From: Candidatus Peregrinibacteria bacterium
GTDB lineage: Bacteria > Patescibacteriota > Gracilibacteria > UBA1369
Assembly: GCA_020851415.1 (NCBI GenBank)
Contig: JADZCU010000032.1
Span: 1-38,378, forward strand
Direction: 5' to 3'
Length of the DNA: 38,378 nucleotides
The notes beneath the pieces were generated by a model. The model searched no databases. It saw only the letters and a list, made by a program, of their open reading frames with translations, and was not told the origin of the DNA. This document shows, in pieces, positions 557-24,225 of the stretch. A program made the position numbers and the translations under genes. How positions within the stretch are numbered: the stretch's first letter is position 1; each line of letters opens with the position of its first letter.

Positions 557-2065
557 TTACGCAATAGAACTAACATCCTTAGGACCATATTTCACCGCGT
601 AACGGGAAACATTTGGCGTCTCTTCAGGACTCTTATAATCAGGATTTTTTTCCTTAGGGTTTACAATTGAAACGGCGCCATTTTCCACTCGTACCTGATA
701 TCCAATATAAGTATCCTTGTGGACAAATTTTCCGATGTTATATTCAGAAATAACCTTTTTCATTGTTGAAAGTTGTTGCTCGAATCCCTTAGTACCAACC
801 CCATTCGGAGGCAGGAAATAAGCCATAAGTGTATGAGCAAGGTCGTCCATACCCTTTTTCAATTCAGCTTTCTTTTCCTGAGCAGATCCTTCAACTGCTG
901 TAATTGAACCTTGTGTTGGAGCAAGCACCATAACATCTTCCTTCTTATAAGGACCGCTCTTTACCTCTTTAACAACCGGTTCGCCTTTTTCATTCGTACC
1001 AGATTCAAGATAAACAACGCGTAAACCGTTAAGTCCTTTACGCACACCTGTAGCCACAATAACAGTTTCATCGGCACCTGTTTCTGCATTCTTTCTGGTA
1101 ATTTGTTCAGAACGCACAATAACTGTTGAACCAAGCGGTGCATCTTTAGAATCAATCCAGGCAAGTTGTTTTTCCAAATCTTTTTGGTTACGTTCCAAAC
1201 CTTTTTGATCAATCTCTTCCTGAGATTTGAACTTAAATTCAGGTTGGCTCTTAACATTATCTTCAAGTGCAAAAACCCTGGTAATAGCTTCCTTCTTCAT
1301 GCCTTCTTTTGGCTGGAAATTAACGTTAACGCGCACCCATTTTTTATCCTTGCTCATTTCAACGTCAAAAGATTCACCATTTTGACCATCTTCCAAACGA
1401 AGTACACCGGCAACCAAACCCTTTTTCAAAATGGATCTATCTTCGGGCGAAAGTTCTTTTGCGCCGTTTGCAATTTTATCAAGTACTTGCACAAAATTGC
1501 TCTGTTCCTCCGCAATTACATCCTTTTTTCCATCAACCTTTGCTGGAGCCGGTTTTGCCGCCTCCGCCTTTTTCGCAGCATCTGCCTTATCAGCTGCAAC
1601 ATCAGGCTTAGCTGATCTCCCTCTAGGTGTATATTCCAGACCTGCCATTGGGTCACCAGGCAGAGCCTTCTCTTTCGCCGCCTTAGATGCAGAATCAAGA
1701 TTTGCAAAAATTGCATCCACCTGTGCCAGAGTCGCTTCAATCACAGCCTTTGGCTTTTTCTGTGCAGCTTCAAGAGTCTTAACCGTTTCACCGAGCTTGG
1801 TAAACTGCTCCTGAATAGCAGCAGGAGTCCCACTTGGAAGCTTCCCTTTTTCATCTGCTTTACCATAATGTTCCTCAATATTACCTCTCTCAGCCTTCGC
1901 ATCTTCTAATGCGACTTTTGCCTCAGCCATAAGCTGCTCAGTAGATTTTGGTTGACCCTCTTTTGCTTTTTCAGAAGCGTCATCCGGTGGTTTTTCACCA
2001 GGATTAAAAAACACCAGTCGTGGTGAAACCAAATCAGATGAAAGAAGTGAACGACAATTTTTCAT
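557..2065 (-). CDS. RxVF-motif large protein with possible SH3-like segment
   Basis: A 502-residue protein of unknown function. It begins MKNCRSLL and carries PRLVFF at residues 15-20, the N-terminal motif shared by six proteins of the window. Residues 40-140 are a charged coiled coil. Residues 140-180 are an Ala/Lys/Pro-rich linker. Residues about 185-285 are mixed alpha/beta, with a SFDVEM strand followed by a lysine-rich stretch. Residues 310-385 are beta-rich (STVIVRSEQ, RVVYLESG, EDVMVLAP) and could be an SH3-like barrel. There is no conventional signal peptide. The start is supported by the A-rich leader TTAAAACAAAAA just upstream, which recurs before two other RxVF genes, and by a strong promoter. 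The gene is expressed separately from the 3264-18022 cluster, because femX and its own promoter lie in between. Confidence 0.75.
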   Translation of the reverse strand: MKNCRSLLSSDLVSPRLVFFNPGEKPPDDASEKAKEGQPKSTEQLMAEAKVALEDAKAERGNIEEHYGKADEKGKLPSGTPAAIQEQFTKLGETVKTLEAAQKKPKAVIEATLAQVDAIFANLDSASKAAKEKALPGDPMAGLEYTPRGRSAKPDVAADKADAAKKAEAAKPAPAKVDGKKDVIAEEQSNFVQVLDKIANGAKELSPEDRSILKKGLVAGVLRLEDGQNGESFDVEMSKDKKWVRVNVNFQPKEGMKKEAITRVFALEDNVKSQPEFKFKSQEEIDQKGLERNQKDLEKQLAWIDSKDAPLGSTVIVRSEQITRKNAETGADETVIVATGVRKGLNGLRVVYLESGTNEKGEPVVKEVKSGPYKKEDVMVLAPTQGSITAVEGSAQEKKAELKKGMDDLAHTLMAYFLPPNGVGTKGFEQQLSTMKKVISEYNIGKFVHKDTYIGYQVRVENGAVSIVNPKEKNPDYKSPEETPNVSRYAVKYGPKDVSSIA

Positions 2066-3263: not shown

Positions 3264-6200
3264 CTAATAAATAGAACTCAAGATTGCAGCATCAGCAGCG
3301 TCAGGTTTCTTCCCTTCAGGCGCCGCTGCAGGTTTTCCTCTATACTCCCGAAGTTTACTTACCAGACTTGCAAAGTTTAAAGCACTTCCCGATTCAGACG
3401 TGCCGTGGCCGTTCACAATATAAACAATCGTTCCGTCATTCCCCACCCACATATTTACCATCACATTATCCGGATGTTTTGGATTATTTCCGCCGCCCCA
3501 ATCCAGATAAACCTGCACCACCTCATTAAACTCAATATTCATCTTCACCACCCTGCCGATGACCTTTTCCATCTCAGGTTTGCGGAAAGAATAGTAGCTG
3601 CTGATCGCCTGCCACGTAATCTCCTTTGATGTCTCAGGTGTTTCAATAGCCGTGTGTTTGGTTCCCTCCGCCCATTTCTTCAAATGGATCATCTGTCTCA
3701 TGAAAGAATCAAAATCTTCAGCGGCACCTTTACGAGTTTCTTCACCGTAAATACCAATGTTTTCACGGCCAACAGTATAAAGAATTCTACCATGCGGCAG
3801 AACTTCAATATCAATATCCGGATCCGGATTATTCCAGTCAAACTCCAAATAAAACTTATGTGGCTCCTTATCCTTGGGATAAATTTCATCAACACCACCG
3901 GTTTGCTCAACATAATCCTTATACGCCAACTCGTTCCCCACCGTTAACTCCATAATTCTCTGGTGAATGAAGCCCTTGTTCAAAGCATTTGCCGCCTCTT
4001 GAATATTCGGATACTGAAAAACTCCGTTCGGATAACGGAATTCAAACTGATTGCCATTTTGAATCAAACGGCAAGGCAGCGTTCCATTATTAAAACGAAG
4101 ATTAAACGACGCACCGTCGGGATCATTCCCGTGCGTAACCATCGCAAGAAGCGCATCCGCATATTCCTGATAAATCGTACCCAAAAATCCAAGTTCAATC
4201 ACCGGCTTAAATTTCTCCGCTGGAGCAGCCACAGGAGCCACATCAACATCGCCTGAAGGAATCTTCTCATACTTGCCAATATACTCCCACATAGGAATAA
4301 ATTTCGAACTATAGGCACTCTGCAATTCAGCCATGGAAGGTTTTTTTGCAAAAACCAACCCCGAAGCCGCAATCCCTTGTTGCAGCAAAACATTCAACCG
4401 TTCAGCATCGCTGCTAGATAATTTTTTACCCACATATTTTTGCATAAGCGTACGATCAACATCATAGTTACCGGTACTCTTAATGCCCGGAGAATCCGGA
4501 TTAAGTGGTTTATCAGTAATTTCTCCCAGTCCATAAACAATATTTCCTGTTCCAGGTTCGGTAAATTCACGCAGATTATGTGAAACCAAAAACTGGTCAA
4601 ACTCCTTAGCCTCAGGAGAAGTATCTTTCGCGCCACCGCTGATAGCCGGAGCAACAGCCAGTTCCAATTGTGATTGATCAACCCAAATCTCTTTATCCTC
4701 AAATTTCACTTTCACAAAAACCGTATCGTTAATCTGTTTCGCTTTGGCGTTTACATCAACCAAAGAAACCTCAGTTCCACCCTTCATTTTGCCCACAATA
4801 GCGCCATTATCATCACGATAAGCCGCCTCAGAAATATTCGGTGAAACCACTAATTTATTATTCTTAAATCTACCGTCAACAGACTGTGCCTTACTCCATT
4901 CACTTTGATAAATATCTGTTCCGGCGGGAACCTTCTCTCCTGGTTTTCCCGGGGCTCCCCCTACGGGAACCGTAGCTCCAACGCCTTTTTCAATATCGCT
5001 GAGTCGGGAATTGGTGTTCTCAAGTTCATCACTGACAACACTCACAACACTGACATGTTTAACGTAAGTAGAGAGCGGAGTAGTATCTTCTACCCCCAGG
5101 GACTCCAGTTGTTTTTGAGCGGCAGCAAGACGTAATTGCATATCGGTAAACTCCTTCGGATCAAACTGACCCGATGAAGCTGTCTTCTCTTTTAATTGTT
5201 GAACTCTTGCTCCCACCGCGGTCATTCGGTCAAAAGTTTTTTTCATCAAATCCGGAAATTTTGCTGCAGCCTCCTTAGCCGCAAAAGTTTCAGCGGCAAT
5301 TATCAAAGGATCATGTCCCAAATTTACGGTACTATTATCAAGCGCCAAAACCTGCTGAATAATCGGGTTCTGATATTTAAGATCCAGAGCTCTGCTGGCA
5401 CTCATGGCATCATCAACAAACTTTTTATGATGCTCCCTGGCCGTCATACTCATCTGTTCCACCTTACCAAGTTCACCCTGCCATTCATCCGGCGTTTTAA
5501 TTTTCGAAAAAAGACGAAGTTGAAATTTCCCCTTCTCTACGCGGCTACGTAAAGCTGCATCGGAATCACTTTCATCAGAAAATGTCCCGGTTTTTTTTTG
5601 AAAACTCGGATCAACGTGAAAATTATAATCGGGCAGACCGCTTTGCAGCATACTTTTAATTTCACCGTACAAATATTGACGATATTTTTCCGCCTGCCCT
5701 GCATCTTTAAAATGCAAATCGGTGAGTTTCAAATAACCCACAAAAAAACCGGTCATTTCCGGAGACAATTTTTTATCACTCGAGTCCCCATCAGCCTGCT
5801 CCATGGCAATGCCGTTTTGAGCCAACATATCCACGTAAGGCTTCATACTGAATGTGTCCAACTTAAGCATCAAATCACTTTCATCAACAGAAGAATCAAC
5901 GGAAGAATTATCATAAGCTTTCTCCGCAAGGCCGTTCAACAAATCCGCATGCGAAGATTTATTCGCCTCATCATAACGTTTCATTGCGGCCAAATATCCT
6001 GAAAAAAGAAAACGCGTTCTGCCAAAAGAATCATGAATTCCCGTACCTTCATAATCCTGAATCTTATTCGCTTTATTCTCCGGATCACTCTTCTCCAGTG
6101 CCCATTTCCGCGCCGCCTCAAAACTTTTATACCTTGGATCTTCCGGCATACTTTCAAGCAAAAGCTGCATTCGCATCTGACGACTTCGTTGCAACGCGCG

Positions 6201-6440
6201 GCTTTTACCAATGTCGCGGCTCTCTTTCAAAACCTTAAGTTCCTGAAGCAAAAGTTGTTTGTCTTCTTCAAGACGCACCAACAAATTTGCTTTTCTCTCA
6301 GGTGAGTATGTTCCGGTTTCAATCCGTTTTTTTTCCTTGTTATAAGCCTCAATAACAGTGTCAGCAGTAATTTTCTCAGGTTCCGCCTGGATCTGAGTTT
6401 CAAGAATTTCTATCGGATTTTTTTCTGCTGTATCCGCCAT
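3264..6440 (-). CDS. giant modular protein with SH3-like domain and three C-terminal alpha/beta repeats
   Basis: A 1058-residue protein of unknown function. It is the one large member of the cluster that lacks the RxVF start; it begins MADTAEKNPIEILE with helical, charged sequence. Residues 1-510 are mainly helical and coiled coil. Residues about 513-600 look like a bacterial SH3 domain (NKLVVSPNISEA, GGTEVSLVDV, VFVKVKFEDKEIWVDQSQLEL). The C-terminus holds three related units at about 775-832, 861-925 and 970-1036. Each has two or three strands, a Gly/Asn turn, a further strand (GRILYTVG, GTIVYIVNG) and a helix (DFDSFMRQMIHL, NFASLVSKLREY). There is no signal peptide or clear membrane span. 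It starts 10 bases after the 6451-8823 gene, so it is co-transcribed with it, and it ends the operon facing femX. Confidence 0.75.
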   Translation of the reverse strand: MADTAEKNPIEILETQIQAEPEKITADTVIEAYNKEKKRIETGTYSPERKANLLVRLEEDKQLLLQELKVLKESRDIGKSRALQRSRQMRMQLLLESMPEDPRYKSFEAARKWALEKSDPENKANKIQDYEGTGIHDSFGRTRFLFSGYLAAMKRYDEANKSSHADLLNGLAEKAYDNSSVDSSVDESDLMLKLDTFSMKPYVDMLAQNGIAMEQADGDSSDKKLSPEMTGFFVGYLKLTDLHFKDAGQAEKYRQYLYGEIKSMLQSGLPDYNFHVDPSFQKKTGTFSDESDSDAALRSRVEKGKFQLRLFSKIKTPDEWQGELGKVEQMSMTAREHHKKFVDDAMSASRALDLKYQNPIIQQVLALDNSTVNLGHDPLIIAAETFAAKEAAAKFPDLMKKTFDRMTAVGARVQQLKEKTASSGQFDPKEFTDMQLRLAAAQKQLESLGVEDTTPLSTYVKHVSVVSVVSDELENTNSRLSDIEKGVGATVPVGGAPGKPGEKVPAGTDIYQSEWSKAQSVDGRFKNNKLVVSPNISEAAYRDDNGAIVGKMKGGTEVSLVDVNAKAKQINDTVFVKVKFEDKEIWVDQSQLELAVAPAISGGAKDTSPEAKEFDQFLVSHNLREFTEPGTGNIVYGLGEITDKPLNPDSPGIKSTGNYDVDRTLMQKYVGKKLSSSDAERLNVLLQQGIAASGLVFAKKPSMAELQSAYSSKFIPMWEYIGKYEKIPSGDVDVAPVAAPAEKFKPVIELGFLGTIYQEYADALLAMVTHGNDPDGASFNLRFNNGTLPCRLIQNGNQFEFRYPNGVFQYPNIQEAANALNKGFIHQRIMELTVGNELAYKDYVEQTGGVDEIYPKDKEPHKFYLEFDWNNPDPDIDIEVLPHGRILYTVGRENIGIYGEETRKGAAEDFDSFMRQMIHLKKWAEGTKHTAIETPETSKEITWQAISSYYSFRKPEMEKVIGRVVKMNIEFNEVVQVYLDWGGGNNPKHPDNVMVNMWVGNDGTIVYIVNGHGTSESGSALNFASLVSKLREYRGKPAAAPEGKKPDAADAAILSSIY

Positions 6441-6450: not shown

Positions 6451-8823
6451 CTAGGAAGCTTTGGAATCTGACTCACCTTTTTTGCCGGCAACTTTTTTCC
6501 CAGGCTTTTCTTTCGGTGCTATTTCAGGAACATCCAATCCAAAGCGACCCTTCACAATAGGTGAAGCAGCCACGATTTTACCCTGATATTTGCCCTGATC
6601 ATCAGCAGTTACCTCAATAGTCATGTCACGATGTCTGAATGTTAATTTGCCGTTTGGTTGCACCAGGCCAGCAGGTAAATCTGCAACACCCTCATTGACT
6701 TTATCCTGTGCATCTTGAGGTGTATACCCTGCCTTAGGTCGAGGCATTTTAGCAACATCAGACACAATTTTAATAACACGTTTTTTCACTTTAGGCGGAA
6801 CTTCTGCCGAAGCAGAAGCAACCTCAACAGCAGGTTTCGGTGCATCTGGATTTGGCGCTGGCTGTTTTGGAGCACCTTCGTCCGGCTTACCCTTTGGTGC
6901 GTCAGGTGCTTTTTTATCTCCACCCTGTGCAACCGGTTGGCCTCCGGTTCCTGAGCCTTCTTTTTTCGGAGCCGGTTTTGGAGCAGGAGCATCTCCACCT
7001 TTAGCTGCAGGTGCCTTGGCACCACCGCCGCCGGTCGCTTTTTTGCCTTTGGATTTTTCGTCATCCTTTGGTGGCTCTTCAACTTTTGGTTCCTCTTTTT
7101 TCTTGGCAGATTCCAGTTGATCCAAAAGATCAGCAGGTTTAACAACTTTAGTCTGCATAATAAGACGCACGGCATCTTCATGCTCCTTTTCAAGCTTATC
7201 CAGTTCTTCCTGAGGTACGGTTTTGCCGCTGTATCTCAAAAGAAGTGCATTTTGTCTGGCAACATGTTCGGTATATTCATCATTAATTGCCTCGCCCACT
7301 TCACCTTTTCGTTTCATTACGCCTGTCAGGTACTCCTTGTAGTAAGCAACAAAGTCCATCTTTACGGTTTTACCATCTTTCACAACTTCAACTTCTTTGC
7401 CGCCATAATTATAATCAAGTCCACGAATTAATCCGGACTGTGCATAAAGAAATTTCGCCGGCAACTTACCTTTTACATCGCCATAAATTTCACGGCCTCC
7501 AACGATTTTTGTATAATCAAGGTCTTGAGCCAATTTCTTGAAATCAACATCACCACTTTCAGCTCCCATCATTCCCAGAAGAACTTTTTTCACCATCGCA
7601 TCATATTTTTTTGGATCCGGTTCTGCGGCTAAAGCACCTCGCAAATGCCATTCAATGGCACGCAATCTATCGCCATTATCCTTGTTATTATAATTTAGTT
7701 GGCGGGTAACACGTTCAATAACAGAACTAATCAGAGTGTCACGAGCTTCTTCAGGAGCTTCATGCTTGGTAAATACTTCCGGGGCATTTTCCTTTGCCCA
7801 CATAGTTGGAGAAGGCACCTCTTCACCTTTATCAATAGCCGCTTTTACAGCTGCTTCGTACTGGTCGAAAAATTTAGCATTTTTATCACCCTTAAAAATC
7901 TCATTGGCAGCATTCATTTTACCAACAACTTCACCAAAAAGCTTTGAGCCTTTGTTAGTATCAAAATACATTGTATCCAAAACGTAACGGAAACTACCTC
8001 TTCCAGTCTCAGTTCCAAAAACTTTATCCCAGGTAAAATAATTAATCCCATTGTCTCCTTGGTTCTCTTTAAAAGCCTTAAGTTTCGCCATTGCAGCTTT
8101 TGGTCCAAGTTCCACATAAGTATTTTGAAGCATTTCAGCGGTCGCTTCCAAAACATTATCTTTATTCCAATCTGGTCCGCCAGTATTCACAATACCACCA
8201 TCTGCCTTTTTCTCCCAACGCGGCATAGCCACACCTTTTTGATATTCAAGCCCTATACCCTTCATCAATGTAGTAACACTACTCCATGACGCTTCTTTTT
8301 CCTGATCAGCATACTTGCTGTCAATCATCTGCGCCTGCAAAGATTGCTTAAATTCATCCGCAAATTTTTTGGCTGCCTCCTCACGTTTTGTATTAGCATC
8401 ATTAAATTTCGTTTCCAGTCTTCCCAAGGCACTTTTCCGCGCCTCGCCAAGAGTTTTACGCAAAGCGCCGTCTTTTGACTCAAGATCAGCTTTTTCAGCA
8501 ACAAAAGTCGCCTTTTCTGCCTCAAGTTTTTTTGCTTGCGCAGAGCCTTTTGGAAGCGCGGCAATTTTTGCATCAAGATCTTCAATCTTTTTCTGTGCGG
8601 CAGCTTTTCTTTCAGAAACTATACCTTCAATAACACCATTGGTTACCAGAACGGCGTTATCTCGTATGTCTTTGAAGTATAGATTTGTTTCAGAAGTTTC
8701 TGCATCCTTTGCAGTTTGTTCAAAAACAGCATCAAAAGACTTATCAAAATTTTCATTCTCAAAAACAAAACGTTTTTGAAGCGAAAGTGTGTTGTACGAA
8801 TTGAAGCAAGAAAGTATTTTCAT
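6451..8823 (-). CDS. RxVF-motif large protein
   Basis: A 790-residue protein of unknown function, starting MKILSCF with KRFVF at residues 17-21. Residues 25-160 form a long Lys/Glu/Ala coiled coil. Residues 160-570 are mostly helical with a folded look (W, Y and F spread through). Residues about 575-680 are a Pro/Lys/Gly/Ala linker (many PKP, KGGD and APKP). Residues 690-790 form a small alpha/beta C-terminal domain (KVNEGVADLP, KLTFRHRDMTIEV, QGKYQGKIVAASP). No signal peptide or catalytic motif is recognised. It follows the small gene 8844-9203 by 20 bases and precedes the 1058-residue gene by 10. The leader TTAAAACAAA lies three bases before the ATG, as in two sister genes. Confidence 0.75.
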   Translation of the reverse strand: MKILSCFNSYNTLSLQKRFVFENENFDKSFDAVFEQTAKDAETSETNLYFKDIRDNAVLVTNGVIEGIVSERKAAAQKKIEDLDAKIAALPKGSAQAKKLEAEKATFVAEKADLESKDGALRKTLGEARKSALGRLETKFNDANTKREEAAKKFADEFKQSLQAQMIDSKYADQEKEASWSSVTTLMKGIGLEYQKGVAMPRWEKKADGGIVNTGGPDWNKDNVLEATAEMLQNTYVELGPKAAMAKLKAFKENQGDNGINYFTWDKVFGTETGRGSFRYVLDTMYFDTNKGSKLFGEVVGKMNAANEIFKGDKNAKFFDQYEAAVKAAIDKGEEVPSPTMWAKENAPEVFTKHEAPEEARDTLISSVIERVTRQLNYNNKDNGDRLRAIEWHLRGALAAEPDPKKYDAMVKKVLLGMMGAESGDVDFKKLAQDLDYTKIVGGREIYGDVKGKLPAKFLYAQSGLIRGLDYNYGGKEVEVVKDGKTVKMDFVAYYKEYLTGVMKRKGEVGEAINDEYTEHVARQNALLLRYSGKTVPQEELDKLEKEHEDAVRLIMQTKVVKPADLLDQLESAKKKEEPKVEEPPKDDEKSKGKKATGGGGAKAPAAKGGDAPAPKPAPKKEGSGTGGQPVAQGGDKKAPDAPKGKPDEGAPKQPAPNPDAPKPAVEVASASAEVPPKVKKRVIKIVSDVAKMPRPKAGYTPQDAQDKVNEGVADLPAGLVQPNGKLTFRHRDMTIEVTADDQGKYQGKIVAASPIVKGRFGLDVPEIAPKEKPGKKVAGKKGESDSKAS

Positions 8824-8843
8824 AAATTTGTTTTAATAGTTTT

Positions 8844-9203: not shown

Positions 9204-9233
9204 AGCTATGTATACTTTAAAATATATCTTCTA

Positions 9234-9262: not shown

Positions 9263-9264
9263 GG
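9243..9264 (-). terminator. intrinsic terminator after the 1794-residue gene
   Basis: On the minus strand the RNA would read CCTTTT, loop AAG, AAAAGG, then GTTTTTG. This is a short perfect stem followed by a T tract, 27 bases after the stop at 9292. Confidence 0.55.
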
Positions 9265-9291
9265 ACTGTGTTTGCTCTTTCTTAAGGCGTT

Positions 9292-12200
9292 TTAGGCCCC
9301 AGCCGCTGTGTTCGCCAACCTACTGAACGTCTCTTCGGCCCAACGATCCTGGACAGTCACAGTCACATTTTTGTCCAAAGAAATCACAGTAGTAAAGTTG
9401 CCGCTCTTGGAATAAACTTTCAATTCCCGTGTCAAATTCATACCAGAAACCAGTGGAGAAATTTGATCCTGAAGATCTTTCACCATCAACTGTTGCAGTT
9501 CAGCTGAGTCTTTAAAAGCTGCACCCTTATGTAAATCCACATAATATTGCGGATTCATACCATGCTCAAAAGCGGCTTTGTAAACCTGCCCAACCTTCTT
9601 TTTTGAAGGTAAATCTTCAATCCATTCCTGCAAACCCTCATAGCTCTTTTTGCCGCCGGCACCAATGGTAATTTTAATGCCATCACGGACAGTCTGAACA
9701 TCTTTTGAAGCCTTTTTATCAAACGTAGAAAGTTCAATATTCAAAGCAGCCGTCAGTGCATCAACAGTTATACCGGAAGGATCTTTAGAGCGGAATTTAT
9801 CCAGTGCTCTGTCAGCGGACAACTTAATCTTCTCTTCATCTTCAGGCGAAGATTCAATATTTGCAGAAGCAACCTCAAGCGGGTTTCCGGGCTTATCTGA
9901 TGGCGGTTCAGCAGGTTTTTCATTCTCCTGTTGCCAATCCAAAAATTCCTGTGGGAAAGTCAAATCAGGTGGAAACTCGCCCAGGGTTTCAATCTTAACA
10001 ACCGCATACTCAAGTGAAGCAATTTGCTCCTCAATAGTGCCATGAATAAATGCGCCGCGCCCCAAAGCCTTGGTAACAAAAACACCATTATCCTTAAGGA
10101 TTTTATCCAGCGTAAGCTTTGTTTTCTCTGAAGGATTGGATTTTAAGGATTTATACAAGCCTTTCGCATTATCAATTTTTCCGCGTAAATATCGACCAAA
10201 CTTATAGGTTTGGGACTGCTGTAAAATACTTTCAAGCTCTGGAGATAACCCGGCAACAGGAGATGGAGCAGCTTTCATCTTGGCAACAGGTGCGCTCACT
10301 TCATACATTTTATCTGCACCAACCACTCTTTCAGTAATTTTAAATTCACCTATTTCGAGTCCTTGATTGGCTGCGCGTTTGCGCAAAGCGGAAAGATATC
10401 CGCTCTCAATAGTCTTGGCGTGAAGCCCATCCAGCATAATTTCACTTTTACCGGCAGCAAGAGCTTCATTAATAGTCCTATCCAAACTCGCCATCATGAC
10501 ATCAGGTTTTTGAGCACCAGCAAAATATCTGTCTGACATCAAAGTATCATCAATGATCGATGGATATTTGGTAGGAACTTTTCCTGCTCGCATATCTATT
10601 AATAAATCCTGGGTCGCAGCGGCTCTGGCTTCAATTGCAGCCTCCTCAGCAGTCAAATTCAGCTGTTTTTGAGTAAACAAATCAAGTTGTTCTCCCTCTG
10701 CCGCTTTGGCACCCGGAGCAGCTTTTCCCTTTGGCTCGTAAGCAGGCTTCCCTTCCGGAGTGAAAAGATCCAGCTGTTCACCGCCGACAGGAACAGGTTT
10801 TGGTGCAGGTGTAATAGCATCTGCTTTACCTGATTCATACAGCTCAATCTTCCCCTTGCCGTTGGCCTTTAATTCAAAAACTGTATCCTTAATTTTAATT
10901 TCACCAATTTTGCGATCAGGAAGAAACTGGATTTTTTCAAACTCATTTTCAAGAGAACGAGCAAGACGTGCAGGATCAACAACTGCATCTGCAGAATGTT
11001 TTGCCTCAAAAGATTCAACAAGTTTTTTCTCCGGACCAGCCATAAGATCATCAATCATATGGGGGTGAATCTCTGCCTCAAAGCGCATTCGCGCATAGCC
11101 ATCCTTAATGGTAACATCAATAATTGGTTCAACTTTAGTTTCCGGGAGAATCTCCACGGTAGCGGGTTCAGCCTTGGCGGCATCAGGAGATTTTTTCGCT
11201 TTTGATGCTTTTGCAACTTTCGGATACAAACCCTTCTCAAAAATCTTATCCAAAATTCTGGCCACCTGTTCATCTTTGGCACTGAATTGAAAAATAACTT
11301 CCGCTGCATCCTGAATGTTCGAAAGTGATACCGCTGATTGCTTATCAAACTCCATAAACTTAATCAAAGCTCTGCCCTCAAAAATTTTATGAAACTGAGG
11401 GTGTGCTTCGTAAAGTTTCATCAGTGAAGGATCTTCTTTGATCAGCTTAGCCATATCATCAAAGTTTGTACCCTTGAAAGCCTCAGCAAGAGCCTTATCT
11501 TCTTTAATTCCTTTCAAAATACCCTGAACAACATTTTCATTCCCCAAAACTTTTTCTGTCCAAAGTGCACGTAAAGCACCGAGATTTTCCGCCTCATGTT
11601 CCATCACATTCAACGCTTTACTCACACGGGCAAAACGAAGTGAACCTTCGGCAACACCTTGTTTTAATACCAGTTTCGTCAGTTGTGGGATAGATCGGAA
11701 AAGCCTGGTAGAGTATCTCACTATACCTATCGGCATATCATAACCTAAAAATTTAACTCCTTTAGCGCCAAGTTTTGCCGTTTCCCAGGCAGTCTTTAAA
11801 GCCACCTCAGCTGTACCTTGCGCAACAGCCAATCCTTTGGCTCCGGCGCCTTCAGCTGTTGCAAAACGGTCAGCAGCCTTTGTCCCACCCGGCAATCGCT
11901 CAAGAGTTTTCTCACCATAATATTTGAAAATAGCAGCAAGCTTACCGCCGCCACCCACAGCCTCTGCAGCTACCTGTGCGGCATCAGCGGCGAGTTGTGC
12001 TTCCTTTAATAAATTTTCAACTTTTGCCGTTGCTGCAACAGCCTCAGTCGAAAGTGGACCTTTTGCTTTCTCAATTTCCTGCAATGACTTAATAGCATCA
12101 TCAGCTGTTTTGGCAGCTTCATGTGCCCGCTTGGCAAGAACTGCGGCTTCTTCAGCCTTACTTGCTTGAGCCGCATACTCATGAGCCAGCGTGCGCAACT

Positions 12201-14676
12201 CTTCAGCCGCCTTAATATGTTTCGGTAATTTAGAGTTTGCAGCGACTTTCTCCGCCGCTTCAGCCCTCTTGGCTAGTTCCGCAGCGCGCTCCGCCTTGAG
12301 TCGATGTGCAGCATTAGCCGCCTGTTCGGCCTTTTCAAAACTTTGTACAACAGTACCGGATCTCTCTCCCAACTCGGCAACCGTCTTTGCCTCCACCAGA
12401 CCCTTCATGCCTGCAGAAGCGCCTTTGGAGAAATTAGCAATTTCAGCGGCCTGGCTTACTTCAGCACTTGTTTTCAAAAATCCTGGCTTCTTAAAAGCTT
12501 CAGCCGCAAATGTCCTAAAGAAGGTACTGGCTTCAGCAACACGACCGGTAAAAATTCCGGCCTTGCTTCCGGCAGCGGCAAGAACCTCGGCACGAGCCGC
12601 GGTAGACGTAACCTTTGCAGCTTGAGCCGCTTCGCCTCCAACAAACAATGAAGCAACATTCGCCAAAACTTTACCAATACCCGATCCAACATTTCCCTTT
12701 TCAAACTCTTCATACGAAATCAAAGCCTTTCCAAGCTCCTTCCATGCTTTACCGGCCAGTTCAGTATCGCCCACAGTTCCTTCTTTTGCATTTATAGTTA
12801 ACAGTGCCCCCAGACCTTCTAAAGTATCAAAAGGTTTTCCAACAACAGTACAAAGTCCGCCGGCCAGTTCAAAAAGACCACCGGACGCGCCTGTGAAAAG
12901 TGAAAGGACATTAGCGCCGAAACCAGCCGGATACTTCCATCCGCTTTCAATATCATAAGCGCCCTGTGTAGCCACATTACCCTGTTCAATAATCCACTTA
13001 CCAAATTTTGTCAGCCATTCACCGGGTATAGCTGCTATCTGGCCCACAGTGTCCTGATACAAATATTTCGCATTATTCCACATCACGCCAAAAACACCTT
13101 CTGTTTCAACTTTCACTTTATCCAGTTGTGAACAAGCCTTATCAAAAACCGAAAACGAAAGACTGTTTGCCAAACTCGCATCCAAAAGATGATTGTCTGT
13201 TTCTCTCTGGATACTGTCCAGATTCTTTAAATGATAATCATACTTATCTTTAACTCCTTCAATACATTCGGCATAAGCTTGCTTCTGTGTTTCCAAAACA
13301 AGAATCTGCTCCTCGGTTGAAATCATCGAAGGCTCCACAACCTTATCAATAGTGTCTCCGACAGTTCCCAGATCACTTTCCACCGCTGATTCTTCTTCAC
13401 TCATCGCAACGTCAACTCCCTTGGCTTTTTCAGCCGATTTATCCAGGTAAGTCGCGCCAACGTTGGCTCTTCTTTTTCTTTCCTGAACCTGAGCAAGTGC
13501 CTGATTGATTGCCTCCTTTTGTTCATCAGTCAGATTTGGCTCCTTCAGCATTTCAGCAAGAGCACTCTCTTTTTCCTTTTCAGCTTCGGACACTTTTCCC
13601 ACTGCAATTTTTCGTTGTTCAAGTTTTTTTGCAACGTTTGCAGGTGAATCATCCGCGTTCCGAAGTGTCTCCAAATCATCCTTCTTTTTACTCAGCGCCT
13701 TCTGATGCTCAACCAGTTTCAACTGTTGAGCTTTTAGTTCACCGTATCGCTTTTCATTTGCCTTGATTGCGTCTGCCTTCTCACCTTTTTGCTCTTCCAG
13801 TTTTTTAATCTCTTCATTGCGCTTTTTCAAAATAACACCACGGCGCGCCTGCATAACCCTCGAAATACTTTTTCCATATTTTTCGATTTCCTCTTTTTTC
13901 TTTTTATATTTACTTCTTTTTGATTCCATTTCATCTTTCAATTCTCTCAGTTCTCGCTGAAGTTTTTCTACCTTCTTGTCATCGTTACAATCAACACCCG
14001 GGAGTATTCCGGTTAACTTATCCCATGTGAGGGACGCTCGGTTGGAAAAGCCCTTTTTTGAGTCCTGATACTGCTGCAGGGTCTCATAAAAACCATTGAT
14101 ATCTCCCAAACGTTTTTGAACCGCCTCCTGAAATGAAGCATTCAAAACCGCATATTCCTGCATGTGGTCATTCAACTTTTCAATCGGGGTATCTTCGGGA
14201 AGTTCTTTCGGAATATTATCCAGCTTTGCCGGAGAAGCGTCCTTTAATTTCAAAATATCTTTGGCCGCTGCATTTCCCTCTTTAGCCGCCTGTTGGTCAG
14301 CTTCACTTGGTGTATATTTTTTCAAAATCTCATCTGTCTTATCCAGTACCTGTTTTTTGTATGCATCAAAAGCTTTCTTATCCAGAGTGCCGTCCTTCGC
14401 CGCCATATCCAAAGATTTCTGATAGTACTCATAGAGTCGGTCATACAGGTCGCCGGTAAATCTCCCACCGATCTTATCCAGTTTTCCTTTTACAACCGCA
14501 ACACGCTTATCAGATTCAGTCTTCACCTCTTTCAAAGCTTCAGCCTTGGTCTTTTTCTCCAGACTTGGTGGGGCATCTGTTTTGCTTTCTGCAGACGAAG
14601 CTTTGTTGTCGAACACCAGACGTCTCTGCGCAAAAATCAAAAACGCATTTCTCGTTTTAAGAAACGTTTTCATCAT
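9292..14676 (-). CDS. giant 1794-residue RxVF-motif protein with glycine-rich hydrophobic core and two QLDLF motifs
   Basis: The largest gene of the window; function unknown. It starts MMKTFLK with RRLVF at residues 18-22. Residues 30-450 are charged coiled coil. Residues about 530-690 are Gly/Ala/Trp-rich and moderately hydrophobic (GANVLSLFTGASGGLFELAGG, KVLANVASLFVGGEAA), recalling pre-toxin or membrane-insertion segments of large secreted effectors, although I see no toxin domain. Residues 690-900 are a very Ala/Glu/Lys-rich helix. Residues 900-1200 are helical and folded. Two copies of GEQLDLFT occur near residues 1298-1305 and 1327-1334. From about 1500 an acidic linker leads to a small alpha/beta end (LKVYSKSGNFTTVISL). 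The start overlaps the end of the preceding small gene by 20 bases, so the two are translationally coupled. The second Met (14673) is an equally good start. Confidence 0.75.
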   Translation of the reverse strand: MMKTFLKTRNAFLIFAQRRLVFDNKASSAESKTDAPPSLEKKTKAEALKEVKTESDKRVAVVKGKLDKIGGRFTGDLYDRLYEYYQKSLDMAAKDGTLDKKAFDAYKKQVLDKTDEILKKYTPSEADQQAAKEGNAAAKDILKLKDASPAKLDNIPKELPEDTPIEKLNDHMQEYAVLNASFQEAVQKRLGDINGFYETLQQYQDSKKGFSNRASLTWDKLTGILPGVDCNDDKKVEKLQRELRELKDEMESKRSKYKKKKEEIEKYGKSISRVMQARRGVILKKRNEEIKKLEEQKGEKADAIKANEKRYGELKAQQLKLVEHQKALSKKKDDLETLRNADDSPANVAKKLEQRKIAVGKVSEAEKEKESALAEMLKEPNLTDEQKEAINQALAQVQERKRRANVGATYLDKSAEKAKGVDVAMSEEESAVESDLGTVGDTIDKVVEPSMISTEEQILVLETQKQAYAECIEGVKDKYDYHLKNLDSIQRETDNHLLDASLANSLSFSVFDKACSQLDKVKVETEGVFGVMWNNAKYLYQDTVGQIAAIPGEWLTKFGKWIIEQGNVATQGAYDIESGWKYPAGFGANVLSLFTGASGGLFELAGGLCTVVGKPFDTLEGLGALLTINAKEGTVGDTELAGKAWKELGKALISYEEFEKGNVGSGIGKVLANVASLFVGGEAAQAAKVTSTAARAEVLAAAGSKAGIFTGRVAEASTFFRTFAAEAFKKPGFLKTSAEVSQAAEIANFSKGASAGMKGLVEAKTVAELGERSGTVVQSFEKAEQAANAAHRLKAERAAELAKRAEAAEKVAANSKLPKHIKAAEELRTLAHEYAAQASKAEEAAVLAKRAHEAAKTADDAIKSLQEIEKAKGPLSTEAVAATAKVENLLKEAQLAADAAQVAAEAVGGGGKLAAIFKYYGEKTLERLPGGTKAADRFATAEGAGAKGLAVAQGTAEVALKTAWETAKLGAKGVKFLGYDMPIGIVRYSTRLFRSIPQLTKLVLKQGVAEGSLRFARVSKALNVMEHEAENLGALRALWTEKVLGNENVVQGILKGIKEDKALAEAFKGTNFDDMAKLIKEDPSLMKLYEAHPQFHKIFEGRALIKFMEFDKQSAVSLSNIQDAAEVIFQFSAKDEQVARILDKIFEKGLYPKVAKASKAKKSPDAAKAEPATVEILPETKVEPIIDVTIKDGYARMRFEAEIHPHMIDDLMAGPEKKLVESFEAKHSADAVVDPARLARSLENEFEKIQFLPDRKIGEIKIKDTVFELKANGKGKIELYESGKADAITPAPKPVPVGGEQLDLFTPEGKPAYEPKGKAAPGAKAAEGEQLDLFTQKQLNLTAEEAAIEARAAATQDLLIDMRAGKVPTKYPSIIDDTLMSDRYFAGAQKPDVMMASLDRTINEALAAGKSEIMLDGLHAKTIESGYLSALRKRAANQGLEIGEFKITERVVGADKMYEVSAPVAKMKAAPSPVAGLSPELESILQQSQTYKFGRYLRGKIDNAKGLYKSLKSNPSEKTKLTLDKILKDNGVFVTKALGRGAFIHGTIEEQIASLEYAVVKIETLGEFPPDLTFPQEFLDWQQENEKPAEPPSDKPGNPLEVASANIESSPEDEEKIKLSADRALDKFRSKDPSGITVDALTAALNIELSTFDKKASKDVQTVRDGIKITIGAGGKKSYEGLQEWIEDLPSKKKVGQVYKAAFEHGMNPQYYVDLHKGAAFKDSAELQQLMVKDLQDQISPLVSGMNLTRELKVYSKSGNFTTVISLDKNVTVTVQDRWAEETFSRLANTAAGA

Positions 14677-14989
14677 GATGTGATTCGTTTTTTATTTCTG
14701 TTTTCAATTTTTTTAATTTTTTCTTGGCTCCTTTTTTAGCCTTACTCTGCCCAAACATCTCATAAACATTTTTGGAAAAATCTCCGTCCCTATCACAAAT
14801 TGCCCGGATATATTTATCCTGTTCAGCATGCGCCTGATCAAGGAATTTCATAAATTCCATAAGTCCGTCATTTGGCATTTTCAAAACCTGCTCATAACGC
14901 ACGGCTCGTTCTTCCGGTGAGAAAAACAAAAGCGAATTAAACTTCTTCAAAACCCGTTTCAGCAAATTTTGAGAGACATTCTTAGCCAT
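14657..14989 (-). CDS. small helical partner protein (possibly leaderless mRNA)
   Basis: A 110-residue protein starting MAKNVSQNLLKRVL. The pattern LLFFSPEERAVRYEQVL...GLMEFMKFLDQA matches the two-helix motif of the other small proteins, most clearly the 15076-15459 product. The C-terminus is strongly basic (KKGAKKKLKKLKTEIK) and could bind nucleic acid, membrane or the acidic giant partner. The ATG at 14987-14989 is preferred over a GTG one codon upstream. A TATAAT box ends six bases before the ATG, so the transcript probably begins at or next to the start codon. The gene overlaps the 1794-residue gene by 20 bases in another frame, which is strong evidence of coupling. Confidence 0.7.
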   Translation of the reverse strand: MAKNVSQNLLKRVLKKFNSLLFFSPEERAVRYEQVLKMPNDGLMEFMKFLDQAHAEQDKYIRAICDRDGDFSKNVYEMFGQSKAKKGAKKKLKKLKTEIKNESHHDENVS

Positions 14990-14995
14990 CACAAA

Positions 14996-15075: not shown

Positions 15076-15459
15076 TTAAAATATTCCCAAAAATTTCTTC
15101 TTTTTATCCGAACTACCCTGATTCAATCCGTTGATCAAACTTTCCGCCTCCTTATCGGTGGCTAGTGCATCCTTATCTTCCTCAGTCTGCAGCTCAACTT
15201 TTTTGAGTACATGCATAGACTCTTTTACATCCTTCACCAGTTCAACTTTCTGACTTTGAATTTCGCTCTCCTCCTTGTCAATGTCCGCATTCATTTTTTC
15301 CGCTTCCTCAAGAGCTTTCATGGCATCCATGATGTCCACATCGCTACTCTTTGCATATTTCTCGCGGATAGCCAAACGTTCATCCGAACTCATCAACTGA
15401 AAAAGCGATGAAGATTCGAGCGCCGAAAACAACTTATTGAGTAGTTCTTGTGAAGCCAT
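15076..15459 (-). CDS. small helical partner protein
   Basis: A 127-residue protein of unknown function. It begins MASQELLNKLFSALE and then shows LFQLMSSDERLAIREKYAK...DIMDAMKALEEAEK, the clearest form of the two-helix motif shared by the small genes here. Residues 60-115 are an acidic and basic coiled coil, and it ends in KKKKFLGIF, a short basic/aromatic tail. It lies 11 bases after the stop of the 494-residue RxVF gene, in the same transcript. It is probably soluble and helical; a partner role is inferred from position only. Confidence 0.7.
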   Translation of the reverse strand: MASQELLNKLFSALESSSLFQLMSSDERLAIREKYAKSSDVDIMDAMKALEEAEKMNADIDKEESEIQSQKVELVKDVKESMHVLKKVELQTEEDKDALATDKEAESLINGLNQGSSDKKKKFLGIF

Positions 15460-15470: not shown

Positions 15471-16955
15471 TTATGCTCCTATCTGCTGATCAGGTAAAAC
15501 TATATCTGGTTTCGCTTCTCTTAAGACAAATTTAATCCCGGAAATTTTATAAAGATCTGCGCGGTTCGCAAGTTTATTAATATTTGCCTTTGCTTTAGGA
15601 ATTTCCATTGTAAAGGCAACCAGCTGCCCTTCTACATTCAGTTTAACCGGCACATTCACTTGTCCGTCATTCGGAGCATCTGAAGCTAAAACACTTCGAG
15701 CAATCGAGTCTGCATTTATACCAAGCCTTCTATTCAAATCTCTCATCCCATCACGGCCAAACTGATTGGTAAGATATACTTTCAGGTTATCGTAACTGTC
15801 AAAATATTTTTTACCTTCTTTATCGACCTTCGGCTCACCAGGTTTTGGTTTTTCAGGTGCTTTAACAGCAACGGCATCAGGTTTTTTGGGAGCTTCTGGT
15901 TTCTTGGCGGGAGGTTTAACAGCAACGGCATCAGGTTTTTTGGGAGCTTCTGGTTTCTTGGCAGGAGGTTGAGCAGCAACAGCATCAGGTTTTTTGGGAG
16001 CTTCTGGTTTCTTGGCAGGAGGTTGAGCAGCAACAGCATCAGGTTTTTTAGGAGCTTCGGGTTTCTTAACCGGAGGTTTAACAGGAGCAGCTTCGGGTTT
16101 TTTGACTGGAGGTTTAGCAGGAGCAGCCTCAGGCTTCTTAACTGGAGGTTTAGCCGGAGGAGCTTCGGGTTTTTTGACTGGAGGCTTAGCAGGAGCGGCT
16201 TCCGGTTTCTTCGGAGTCTCGGGCTTCTTGCCGGCATCAGCCTTTTTCTCTCCAGCGCCATCAAGTTTTGCGTAACTTACCTGCGCATCACCAACCGCAG
16301 CTCTCAAGCCCATATAAGCATCGAACCATTCTTGCGCATTTTCACTCTTTGCATCGCGTAGCTTATACACACGTTGAATAGCGACATTTATTCTCTGACT
16401 CTGATCAACTGAACTGTTCCACTTTTCAACAAACGCAGGGTTTGAAGAGTTCGTATAAAGAAAATGTCCCTCTCTCAAACGCCAGTCGGTTAAGGATCTA
16501 TCAACCCCAAGAGCAGCATTTAAACCATCTTTTAAAAGATAACTCTGCAGTGCCTTCAACTCTTCAGGATTATGCAAAACACTCAACTGTTCCTGTTGTT
16601 GTAAAGCTGCTTCCAAACCGCTTTGCAAAGCAACGCGCAAAAATCGCACGCATTCTCTTCGCTTTTCTTCAACATTAACCTCCTTATCATCAAGTTTTTT
16701 CAGTTGCTCATACTTTTCTTTAAAAGCTTTTTGAGCCTCAGCAAGTTTTCCCTTGGCCTTTGGCCCCTTTTTCATTTCATCAATTTTACTTTTTGCCTGT
16801 TCTTCCTCCTTTGGATTTAACTTATCCACAGGTTCATCTTTGCCAGTTTCAGAGGGTTTAGCAGGTCCCGCTTCTCCTTTGGCTTCCACACCCTCCTTAA
16901 AAACCAGGCGCTTAGTTTTAAAGCCATCATCCGTAAATAGTCTGCACATTTTCAT
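15471..16955 (-). CDS. RxVF-motif protein with Lys/Pro/Ala tandem repeats
   Basis: A 494-residue protein, function unknown. It starts MKMCRLF and has KRLVF at residues 15-19. Residues 25-100 are charged coiled coil. Residues 100-240 are a folded helical region containing LTDWRLREGHFLYTNSSN. Residues about 245-370 are a tandem repeat of KKPEAPxKPP and KKPEAPKKPDAVA units, which would form an extended, positively charged rod much like wall-spanning linkers. The last 110 residues are a small alpha/beta domain (NVPVKLNVEGQLVAFTMEI). There is no signal peptide by the usual rules. The start is supported by the leader TTAAAACAAAA, six bases upstream. It sits between two small helical genes. Confidence 0.75.
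   Translation of the reverse strand: MKMCRLFTDDGFKTKRLVFKEGVEAKGEAGPAKPSETGKDEPVDKLNPKEEEQAKSKIDEMKKGPKAKGKLAEAQKAFKEKYEQLKKLDDKEVNVEEKRRECVRFLRVALQSGLEAALQQQEQLSVLHNPEELKALQSYLLKDGLNAALGVDRSLTDWRLREGHFLYTNSSNPAFVEKWNSSVDQSQRINVAIQRVYKLRDAKSENAQEWFDAYMGLRAAVGDAQVSYAKLDGAGEKKADAGKKPETPKKPEAAPAKPPVKKPEAPPAKPPVKKPEAAPAKPPVKKPEAAPVKPPVKKPEAPKKPDAVAAQPPAKKPEAPKKPDAVAAQPPAKKPEAPKKPDAVAVKPPAKKPEAPKKPDAVAVKAPEKPKPGEPKVDKEGKKYFDSYDNLKVYLTNQFGRDGMRDLNRRLGINADSIARSVLASDAPNDGQVNVPVKLNVEGQLVAFTMEIPKAKANINKLANRADLYKISGIKFVLREAKPDIVLPDQQIGA
15845..16220 (-). repeat. in-frame tandem repeat coding the Lys/Pro/Ala rod
   Basis: DNA repeats of roughly 36 to 54 bases encode KKPEAxPxKPPV and then KKPEAPKKPDAVA units. 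The left half (about 15850-16050) is nearly identical from copy to copy, and the right half has diverged. The near-identity suggests recent expansion, so copy number may vary among strains. The limits given are approximate. Confidence 0.75.
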
Positions 16956-17009: not shown

Positions 17010-17363
17010 TCAAGAAACATCAATTTTGTCCAAAGCATCCAGTAATTTCTCCGCTTCACTTTCAATATTTTTCTTATCATCTTCTTCAGCAATTTTAAGC
17101 TCTTCACGGTCAACTTTCTTCATTTCCTGCTGAATTTTTACCGCACTCTCCGCATAATATTTCTGTACATCAGGAGTTTGTTCAAGTTCATCAACTTCGC
17201 TTTCCAATAGTTTCAGTGTTCCGATAGCACGCAAAAGCTGATCATCGGAAGCATTGGAAAATTTTTTCAAAAGATCGGATTGTTGTTCCTCACTCAGCAA
17301 ATTAAATCCCTTCTGAATCTGCAGAAATGCAAAAAATTTCTTTTGGAGAATTGATTGAGACAT
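17010..17363 (-). CDS. small helical partner protein
   Basis: A 117-residue protein, all helical and acidic, of unknown function. MSQSILQKKFFAFLQ is followed by FNLLSEEQQSDLLKKFSNASDDQLLRAIGTLKLLE, the same two-helix pattern as the small genes at 15076 and 14657. Residues 60-115 are coiled coil. It lies between two RxVF genes: six bases after the repaired end of the 17370-18022 gene and 54 bases before the 494-residue gene. It is transcribed from the promoter at 18057. Confidence 0.7.
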   Translation of the reverse strand: MSQSILQKKFFAFLQIQKGFNLLSEEQQSDLLKKFSNASDDQLLRAIGTLKLLESEVDELEQTPDVQKYYAESAVKIQQEMKKVDREELKIAEEDDKKNIESEAEKLLDALDKIDVS

Positions 17364-17431: not shown

Positions 17432-18022
17432 CTAGAGCACCATCAGCCGGCTTCTTATCAGGCTTTTGAGACCCCATGATACCCCCTGATCCTCAAGAAG
17501 GCCAGATCGCAGTGATGCAAGTGGTCCTTTCCCTTCATCACCCTGAGCACCCAAATCAGCGCGTAAAGTTGCAAGCGGGCCTTTTTCCTCCAGTTGTTGA
17601 TCAAGCCACGCTGTCAGAGAATCTGCCTCCTCTGGTGATAACGGCGTACCCTTTGAACGATCAGCAATAACCGAAAGTCTCTGATGAATCTTCTCAGCTT
17701 GAGCTGCCATCTGTTTGCTAACGCCATTGTTTTTCTCAACAGATTGCATAAATTTACGAAGCCTTTGGGCAAGTTTCACACTTCGGTCATCGCCCTTCTT
17801 CTCTAATTCATCAACCTTTTGCCACACACGTTCGTATAATTTTTTCCTGTTACCAGCATCAAGATAATACTCACTGGTACCCTCTTTTGCTGAGTCGTGT
17901 TTTTCAGCAACGTCTGCACTTTTCACGTCATCGTGCATGCCCTCTCCACCAGCAGCAAAAACTACCCTCTGAGCCGCCAATGAGAAGCGAAAATTGCCAA
18001 AGCATTTTTTTAAGAATTTCAT
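17432..18022 (-). CDS. RxVF-motif protein, apparently frameshifted at a run of five G
   Basis: The ATG at 18020-18022 (MKFLKKCFGNF, with QRVVF at residues 18-22) is preferred over an upstream Met at 18091, because the promoter -10 at 18057-18062 lies between them. The open frame gives 196 residues, function unknown. Residues 30-150 are charged and helical. The end holds repeats of GPLAxLRxxL (GPLATLRADL, GPLASLRSGL). After the run of five G at 17482-17486 the frame drifts and stops at 17432. A -1 shift at the run restores a third repeat (GALAALRGDL) and a stop at 17370-17372, six bases before the next ATG. Either a base was lost (mutation or sequencing), or the run is a programmed or phase-variable frameshift. 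Confidence 0.7.
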   Translation of the reverse strand: MKFLKKCFGNFRFSLAAQRVVFAAGGEGMHDDVKSADVAEKHDSAKEGTSEYYLDAGNRKKLYERVWQKVDELEKKGDDRSVKLAQRLRKFMQSVEKNNGVSKQMAAQAEKIHQRLSVIADRSKGTPLSPEEADSLTAWLDQQLEEKGPLATLRADLGAQGDEGKGPLASLRSGLLEDQGVSWGLKSLIRSRLMVL

Positions 18023-21878: not shown

Positions 21879-22982
21879 CTATTGGAATGAGTAGCCCAGA
21901 CCCCCAACCGGCAAAATATGCAGGCCGTGACTATCCGCACTGAAAGTCTTACTACCGTGGACATCCAAATAAAAATGCCATCGTGGATTTAACTGAAGGT
22001 GTCCTCCGGCTACGAAAAAAACACCGGGTTTAAAATCAACCTTACTTCCATCAACAACCTGTACTCTCGGACTGGTACTTATTCTGGAGAATTGGCTGTA
22101 CGAAGCATCACCCAAAACACCGCCTCCAACGGCAACACTAAACGGTTTAAAAATTTTATAACCTACCTCAATTCCCGCGCCAACCTTCAAAGAGTAGGTA
22201 ACGGTATCAACAACTTGCGGCGCAGTTGAAGCAACCACGGAACTCACCTTAAATTCACCTTCAACAGGAAGAATGAACGCGATATAAGGTTTTTTAGAGT
22301 CGGTGAAAATATAGCGAAAATTTACTTCACCAGCATAAGAATCCGTATCACTTACTCTCCCGTGTTCTTTTTCAACATGAGACTGTGGAAGGAAAATACC
22401 TACCTCAAGATGTTTAAGTCCTTTTGCACTTTTTTTCTTATCCGGTTTTTCATCAGGTTTTGCCTTTGGCGCTGGTGGCACAGCAGGCTTTTCATCAGGT
22501 TTTGGTGCCGGTACGGCAGCCACGGCAGGCGCTTTTCTTGCTTCAGCAAGAACCTTATCCATTTCACTCATACCAAAAATTTTATTCGCATACAGTCGCG
22601 AAAAAGTAACAGTAACAACTGTTGGTGTCGGTGCCGGAAAACCTCCGGCAATTTTTTCTTTCTTTTCACTCTCGTTAGTTCGCACAATATTCACCGTATT
22701 ATCGGCCATGACGGTGAAAACATAGCTATAATCAATAGCGCCGCTCTTGTACGAAACAGAAAAAGAATCCCCTTTCAATTTATTGGCAAATTCAGATTTA
22801 AATCTTTGGGCAAGCTTACCATTTTCCGGATCATCAGGAGCATCAAGTGTCTTGCTGGCCGAAGAATCAGCCGGTTTCTTTTTCTCAGCTTCAGCACCAC
22901 CCGGCTTCTCATTTTTATCAAAAACAAATCTTTTCGGTGAAAAGAAACGTGAATCAAAGACAAAATGCGAACCAAAGATCAT
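21879..22982 (-). CDS. RxVF-motif protein ending in a beta-barrel-like domain
   Basis: A 367-residue protein starting MIFGSHF with KRFVF at residues 17-21, the same motif as the cluster at 557-18022. Residues 50-140 are a small alpha/beta domain (FSVSYKSGAIDYSYVFTVM). Residues 145-190 are a Pro/Lys/Ala linker (PKPDEKPAVPPAPKAKP). Residues about 195-367 alternate hydrophobic and polar residues in at least eight strands (HLEVGIFLP, GEVNFRYIF, PYIAFILPVEG, YSLKVGAGIEVGYKI, FSVAVGGGVLG, GVFFVAGGHLQL, WHFYLDV) and end GGLGYSFQ. This resembles outer-membrane beta-barrels of the OmpA/OmpW kind, which is odd in a presumed single-membrane lineage. It could instead be a soluble or cell-surface barrel. 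It is transcribed from 23032-23060. Confidence 0.75.
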   Translation of the reverse strand: MIFGSHFVFDSRFFSPKRFVFDKNEKPGGAEAEKKKPADSSASKTLDAPDDPENGKLAQRFKSEFANKLKGDSFSVSYKSGAIDYSYVFTVMADNTVNIVRTNESEKKEKIAGGFPAPTPTVVTVTFSRLYANKIFGMSEMDKVLAEARKAPAVAAVPAPKPDEKPAVPPAPKAKPDEKPDKKKSAKGLKHLEVGIFLPQSHVEKEHGRVSDTDSYAGEVNFRYIFTDSKKPYIAFILPVEGEFKVSSVVASTAPQVVDTVTYSLKVGAGIEVGYKIFKPFSVAVGGGVLGDASYSQFSRISTSPRVQVVDGSKVDFKPGVFFVAGGHLQLNPRWHFYLDVHGSKTFSADSHGLHILPVGGLGYSFQ

Positions 22983-23556: not shown

Positions 23557-24225
23557 TCATCGTTGTCCATCACCCTCAAAAGTGTACAAAACCTTCTGTA
23601 TAGCCGGAATCGGAATTTGCAAAACCCGAGCCACTGCTACGGCAGCCAAAATATTTTCCTGGTCATTCTCGCCTTTTAGTAAAACCTTATTCACATTCCC
23701 CGCCATTTGGCACACCCCCGGCGCACAAAAAATAATTGCCGGTCCTTCAATGTGAGCTCCATGAGTCACGGCCTGAGTACGGCTCACTGGGAATTTCTGT
23801 GCGCCCGATTCAGCCTGAAGTTTTTCACCATAAGGTCTGTCCAAACTCACCACAGAAAAATCTTCAGCCTTTTGTAATTTTACAAAATTCACTAGCGCGT
23901 CCAAATCTTCCTGCGCATCCGCCTCACCAACAATCACCGCTACATGAGGACTTACAGTAACATCTTTCAAATCCATTGCAGCCAAATCCAAAACCACCCA
24001 AGACTCTTTATTGAGTTTATCGAGTGCACGATCTACCCCATACCCAGCCTGATCTTCATCAGCATTACCACCTTCAAAACCAGTTTCATTACCCAAATAA
24101 ACATCTCTCTCCGCCTCTTTCATCATCAAATAAACCATTTTCGAAACAGTTTTTCGTCCTTCTCCCCCGCTTACACCCACCACCGGACACGGACATTTTT
24201 CCAGAAATTGTTGTAAATTTTTCAT
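23557..24225 (-). CDS. MurD-like Mur ligase central-domain protein, probably catalytically degenerate
   Basis: A 222-residue protein resembling the central ATPase domain of MurD (UDP-MurNAc-L-Ala:D-Glu ligase) without the N-terminal UDP-binding domain and without most of the C-terminal domain. VVGVSGGEGRKTVSKMVYLMM aligns with the GVTGTNGKTT P-loop but is altered around the Lys. YLGNETG matches the GGNIG segment. SPHVAVIV corresponds to the Mg/carbamate region but lacks the DHLDRH residues. ENILAAVAVARVLQIPIPAIQKVLYTFEG is a good match to the MurD NxxNxxAAxAxA helix. Full MurD is about 450 residues. It may be a decayed gene or a regulatory paralogue. The frame ends soon after FEG, while an overlapping frame continues with ERQRIVAHE, which might be the lost C-terminus. 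Confidence 0.65.
   Translation of the reverse strand: MKNLQQFLEKCPCPVVGVSGGEGRKTVSKMVYLMMKEAERDVYLGNETGFEGGNADEDQAGYGVDRALDKLNKESWVVLDLAAMDLKDVTVSPHVAVIVGEADAQEDLDALVNFVKLQKAEDFSVVSLDRPYGEKLQAESGAQKFPVSRTQAVTHGAHIEGPAIIFCAPGVCQMAGNVNKVLLKGENDQENILAAVAVARVLQIPIPAIQKVLYTFEGDGQR

Follow-up and report, generated by a model that had tools for sequence, protein, structure and literature searches.

The tagged barrel gene is located in a Peregrinibacterial genome and encodes a protein with a modular layout. The window analysed here is a stretch of 38,378 nucleotides of Candidatus Peregrinibacteria DNA (assembly GCA_020851415.1, contig JADZCU010000032.1), in which an ATG-initiated open reading frame on the minus strand encodes a protein of 367 amino acids (B367) with the limits and GGLGYSFQ ending given in an earlier note on this DNA (Table 1). 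B367 consists of a 21-residue N-terminus ending in KRFVF and carrying the tag MIFGSHFVFDSRFFSPKRFVF, a small domain without any family match, a linker and a C-terminal barrel-like region with the terminus LPVGGLGYSFQ. The gene sits inside a 165-kb contig between a MATE-type flippase and a Mur-ligase remnant. Its GC3 (0.33) falls in the range of the tagged cluster genes T502, T790, T1794 and T1058 (0.30-0.40), away from the values of the neighbouring MATE (0.53) and prfB (0.46) genes, and places B367 with the tagged set; this GC3 and the interior position in the contig led us to reject contamination as its source. B367 is a genuine, species-specific protein. Searches of 353 genomes of the class, 380 genomes sampled from the phylum, relatives, genome contigs, plasmids and viral contigs found no homologues. 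Matches in G051, G236 and G385 are at chance level, with internal stops and 23-28% identity, the one in G385 falling in a long protein whose repeats resemble beta-sandwiches, and matches to PDB entries are likewise due to chance. The flippase is present in 11 of 13 family genomes, and the B367 gene was not found beside it wherever the flanks were readable far enough. The Mur-ligase remnant (window 23557-24225) retains only the middle domain, with a weak PF08245 match; G007 and G009 carry longer murD-like genes at this position.

Table 1. Features of the tagged barrel gene and of the tagged cluster (positions in the window; aa, residues of B367)
Feature	Position	Strand	Basis
Tagged barrel protein B367 (367 aa)	21879..22982	-	ATG open reading frame
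B367 tag core R-F-V-F, aa 18-21, closing the 21-aa N-terminus	22920..22931	-	R, V and F invariant with five other N-termini of the window; pattern search
B367 aa 52-148, small mixed helix/strand domain (~100 aa)	22539..22829	-	Secondary structure, low confidence
B367 aa 149-186, Pro/Ala/Lys-rich linker	22425..22538	-	Sequence; similar linkers in T494 and T790
B367 aa 187-367 (181 aa), OMP-like barrel region	21882..22424	-	Alternation score, Pfam, face composition
B367 putative strands	aa 190-200, 217-227, 232-246, 263-277, 281-295, 315-331, 334-346, 354-366		Inspection
T502, tag SPRLVF	557..2065	-	Pattern search; orthologues tagged in G007, G009 and G011
T1058, untagged cluster member	3264..6440	-	Counterparts in G007, G009 and G011
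T790, tag QKRFVF	6451..8823	-	Open reading frame, pattern search
T1794, tag QRRLVF	9292..14676	-	Open reading frame, pattern search
T494, tag TKRLVF	15471..16955	-	Open reading frame, pattern search
T219, tag AQRVVF, start at internal ATG	17432..18022	-	Open reading frame, pattern search

B367 shares an N-terminal tag with a nearby gene cluster and with proteins found across the class. The motif R-x-V-F is present at residues 16-22 of B367 and of five cluster proteins of the window, which bears out the proposed common tag with a cluster about 4 kb away; the closest tagged gene has its start at 18022, at a distance of 3.9 kb, and in B367 the motif lies in roughly the first 25 residues. The tag is kept as R-phi-[VI]-[FY] in orthologues with just 21-38% identity and has drifted in G005 and some others. 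A pattern restricted to F at the last position had made the tag appear confined to the window, which is wrong: Y, I and other variants are found elsewhere. Once Y and I are allowed, B367's own genome yields a 522-aa tagged protein on contig C44, next to a small helical gene upstream, and a 190-aa one on contig C45, with probable further tagged proteins at loci L025 and L029. Pattern searches thus give, for this genome, a minimum of about ten tagged proteins spread over several loci. Tags were also found in G003, in G184 from a different family and next to a Peribacterium flippase (L038, L090). Since the tag recurs at further loci and in further genomes and families, R-phi-V/I-F/Y is, judged by sequence, a class-wide feature rather than a local repeat, and it is new here. 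Homology between the N-terminal domain of B367 and other tagged proteins was not detectable, and no sign of common ancestry emerged.

Several further features accompany the tagged genes. Many of the tags, across several genomes, retain a cysteine at about position 4-8 (MKNC, MKILSC, MKMC, MKKTLC, MKFLYC), which B367 does not have. Genes for small, helical proteins (about 110-140 aa) adjoin several tagged genes, in the window at 115-534, 8844-9203, 14657-14992, 15076-15459 and 17010-17363 and in L131 at 6570-7064. Three of these proteins form a related group (117/127 aa, E 2.5e-4; 139/127 aa, E 0.008), and the small helical proteins could be tag-binding partners or chaperones. Three tagged genes have TTAAAACAAA right before their ATG (upstream of 2065, 8823 and 16955) and no clear Shine-Dalgarno sequence, perhaps indicating leaderless promoters.

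The C-terminal region of B367 exhibits, by sequence, the pattern of an eight-stranded membrane barrel of the OmpX/OmpA/OmpW type. We scored strand alternation with a dynamic programme that fits eight strands of ten residues each, their faces alternating, and expressed the result as z over shuffles. The region scores about 5.15 (z 3.6), a value reached by none of 200 sequence shuffles, compared with z values of 3.1 for OmpX, 3.7 for OmpA, 2.8 for OmpW, -0.5 for B367's own N-terminal half and -0.6 for the lipocalin Blc, which thus falls below its own shuffles. Among 218 proteins of the sampled loci a single one outscores B367, and its locus had been chosen for an OMP-like match; the score is crude, with a RecA-like protein reaching 4.90. 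The putative strands are separated by loops of 16, 4, 16, 3, 19, 2 and 7 residues, a long/short alternation typical of small OMPs. None of 20,000 residue shuffles reaches the face contrast obtained with these strands, an optimistic figure given that their limits were set by eye after looking at the sequence. The comparison controls are few. By sequence, the strands are even in number and amphipathic, with a hydrophobic face of lipid type whose 57 residues include 3 charged or amide/His polar ones (5%) and 15 aromatic ones (26%).

Because alternation alone cannot tell which face points outward, we compared face composition between B367 and proteins of known class, using approximate strands and one lipocalin. 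Glycine makes up 19% of the polar face in B367, 27% in OmpX, 25% in OmpA and 0% in Blc, and aromatic residues make up 26%, 33%, 24% and 13% of the hydrophobic face, respectively. In Pfam, aa 187-367 match OMP_b-brl best (PF13505; E 0.044, 14.4 bits, under the curated cut-off of 28.7), a family that matches neither the reversed region nor any of six shuffles. The ending GLGYSFQ contains GxxYxF with F as the penultimate residue and resembles GVGYRF of OmpX. These observations support a region that is more OMP-like than soluble-lipocalin-like. No OMP family matches B367 significantly, the best score remaining under the family HMM cut-off, and a profile comparison of the barrel region with three E. 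coli OMPs, in which both profiles are shallow, is not significant. Two AlphaFold runs carried out without alignment or relatives gave no fold (pLDDT 32 and 28). The small OmpA/OmpW-type C-terminal barrel of the earlier note consequently stands as a sequence pattern, through z, face composition and best Pfam match, and finds no backing for its closure in models with a pLDDT of about 30. The barrel probably closes in three dimensions, and the odds lean slightly towards its insertion into a membrane.

B367 lacks a Sec signal and its genome lacks the assembly machinery of an outer membrane. The maximum mean Kyte-Doolittle hydropathy over 12-aa stretches of its first 40 residues is 0.56, compared with 2.2-2.6 in OmpX, OmpA and OmpW, so that no Sec signal is recognized by this measure, as the earlier note had stated. 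Membrane beta-barrels typify diderm cells and depend on BAM. The organism is a Peregrinibacterium (Patescibacteria), and the named relatives of the neighbouring flippase are Candidatus Peregrinibacteria/Gracilibacteria. Omp85/BamA, which the note had proposed to look for, is missing both from the 95%-complete genome and from every one of the 195 relatives covered, in a search that is positive for 7 of 14 controls, and LptD is absent from B367's genome. This agrees with a lineage thought to have no outer membrane, as the note had assumed and as published surveys argue for CPR bacteria (PMC6744442; PMC12102498).

The tag occurs a second time with an OMP-like domain, in a family of giant proteins. 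Sub-threshold OMP_b-brl matches in two relatives fall in mutually homologous giant proteins, and the class search, in which comparison genomes are mostly metagenome-assembled, recovered this family from ten genomes, B367's own included. The giant tagged proteins are about 1,800-2,100 aa long, and up to 3,200 aa in G100 (loci L146, from contig C45 of B367's genome, at locus positions 4133-10219, L147, L149 and L151). On C45, the tagged 190-aa gene is followed by the gene for a 2,028-aa giant and then by that for a Sec-exported 1,300-aa protein, an order also seen in G009. At the giants' N-termini the tag is clear in G018 (RLVF) and G047 (RLIF) and has drifted in B367's genome (RLTF), G009 (RMAY) and G031 (KPVY). 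The giants' domain consists of about ten Gly-rich strands broken by a helical insert and, in a profile comparison, weakly matches three E. coli OMPs (P 0.004); OMP_b-brl is matched by one of the ten family members (E 0.068), and homology of the domain to the B367 barrel is not detectable. The two meetings of tag and OMP-like domain in the lineage, in B367 and in the giants, are suggestive and not proof of a membrane location. The link between tag and cell envelope drawn in the earlier note stays an inference, and the second pairing makes coincidence less likely; overall, the reading given in that note finds partial support. Two other candidates were discarded, a spurious PF13505 match in L038 that is antisense to a tagged gene, and L039, which is a lipoprotein. 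Separately, a Peregrinibacterial contig of 30-42% GC (G041 C16, L133 5000-12800) contains an island of up to 62% GC. It encodes a huge repeat protein rich in Cys, together with a protein that combines a Sec signal, an alanine zipper (over the cut-off) and, at the C-terminus, an OMP-like barrel (PF13505, E 0.009, under the cut-off); the island may stem from either horizontal transfer or chimeric assembly.

We propose that B367 is a membrane-type barrel on a non-Sec tagged scaffold within a surface- or envelope-associated assembly, where it would contact or perforate a membrane, and we give this reading a probability of about 0.48. An eight-stranded OmpX/OmpA/OmpW-like barrel would be joined through the short domain and the Pro/Lys linker to the lineage-specific R-phi-V-[FY] tag, which, instead of Sec, would sort B367 to a surface or envelope-associated structure holding other tagged proteins; we regard such a tag-directed location as an even bet. 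The linker would let the barrel reach a membrane as a membrane-contacting or pore-forming module. Because its own cell has no BAM machinery, the barrel would either insert unassisted into that cell's membrane or act on the outer membrane of an adjacent diderm, aided by that cell's BAM. Two further points count against a membrane barrel. We know of no route by which a barrel could be assembled in its own cell without BAM and without a Sec signal, and no homologues of B367 were found that could attest conservation of the barrel.

The chief rival is a soluble eight-stranded barrel of lipocalin/FABP type, or another closed beta fold, with its hydrophobic face inside, serving as a cytoplasmic or extracellular binding module on the tagged scaffold. 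The silence of the alternation score on which face is outside, the missing Sec signal and BAM, and the internal position and helical insert of the giants' OMP-like domain would all fit such a fold. We nevertheless consider it unlikely, given that the Gly-rich polar and aromatic-rich hydrophobic faces of B367 match OMPs and not Blc, that Blc scores below its own shuffles and that the best Pfam family of the region is OMP_b-brl. A beta-rich protein that does not form a closed barrel, such as a beta-sandwich or a repeat adhesin with a convergent OMP likeness, would explain why AlphaFold gave no fold without an alignment and why B367 has no significant family match, and the RecA-like protein comes close to B367 on the crude score. 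The loop alternation, the terminal aromatic signature and the lack of OMP matches in shuffled and reversed sequences speak against this reading, which we rank as the least probable of the alternatives.

B367 could also be the barrel of an epibiont intended for a diderm host. It would leave the producer by a Patescibacterial T4SS or some other contact route, and the host BAM would insert it into the host outer membrane by means of the C-terminal GLGYSF. This host-type signal in a cell with no BAM of its own argues for such a delivery, as does a T4SS pilin on the same contig (window 37738-38151; PF18895, E 1.4e-12), which may represent an apparatus for export or contact; a monoderm-type T4SS has been described in Patescibacteria (PMC12102498). 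The final residue of B367 is however Q and not F, the tag sits on many large, structural-looking proteins, and both the host of the organism and the export of tagged proteins are hypothetical, making this a quite unlikely explanation. A bolder form, in which a monoderm Patescibacterium exports membrane-type barrels by a Sec-independent tag and, as an epibiont, sets its own barrel, with a signal readable by the host BAM, in the host outer membrane, is more improbable still.

If credible, a barrel carried on a lineage-wide non-Sec tag, which the giants with their OMP-like domain bear too, in a BAM-less Patescibacterium would imply an unknown sorting route and either an unknown mechanism of barrel insertion or delivery to a host membrane. 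B367 and its tag would offer a direct handle on surface building and host contact in uncultured Patescibacteria.

Compared with known systems, B367 is closest to the OMP_b-brl (PF13505) barrels of OmpX, the OmpA N-terminal domain and OmpW, with which it shares a length of about 180 residues, eight predicted amphipathic strands, short and long loops, an aromatic hydrophobic face, a Gly-rich polar face and a C-terminal GxxYxF. Unlike these proteins, it has no Sec signal, carries an N-terminal tag and an extra domain, extends one residue past the last aromatic, scores under the family cut-off and is encoded in a genome without Omp85 and LptD. Eight alternating strands are also found in lipocalins such as E. 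coli Blc, but Blc has no glycine on its polar face, fewer aromatics and a score below its shuffles, and, with Blc as the one lipocalin control, B367 shows neither a lipocalin family match in Pfam nor a polar face free of Gly bias. The giant tagged Peregrinibacterial proteins (C45 of the same genome, G009 C2, G018, G031, G047 and others) resemble B367 in the tag, present in several of them, and in a Gly-rich, weakly OMP-like strand domain. In contrast to the B367 barrel, to which it has no significant homology, the giants' domain is internal, contains a helical insert and is conserved across families.
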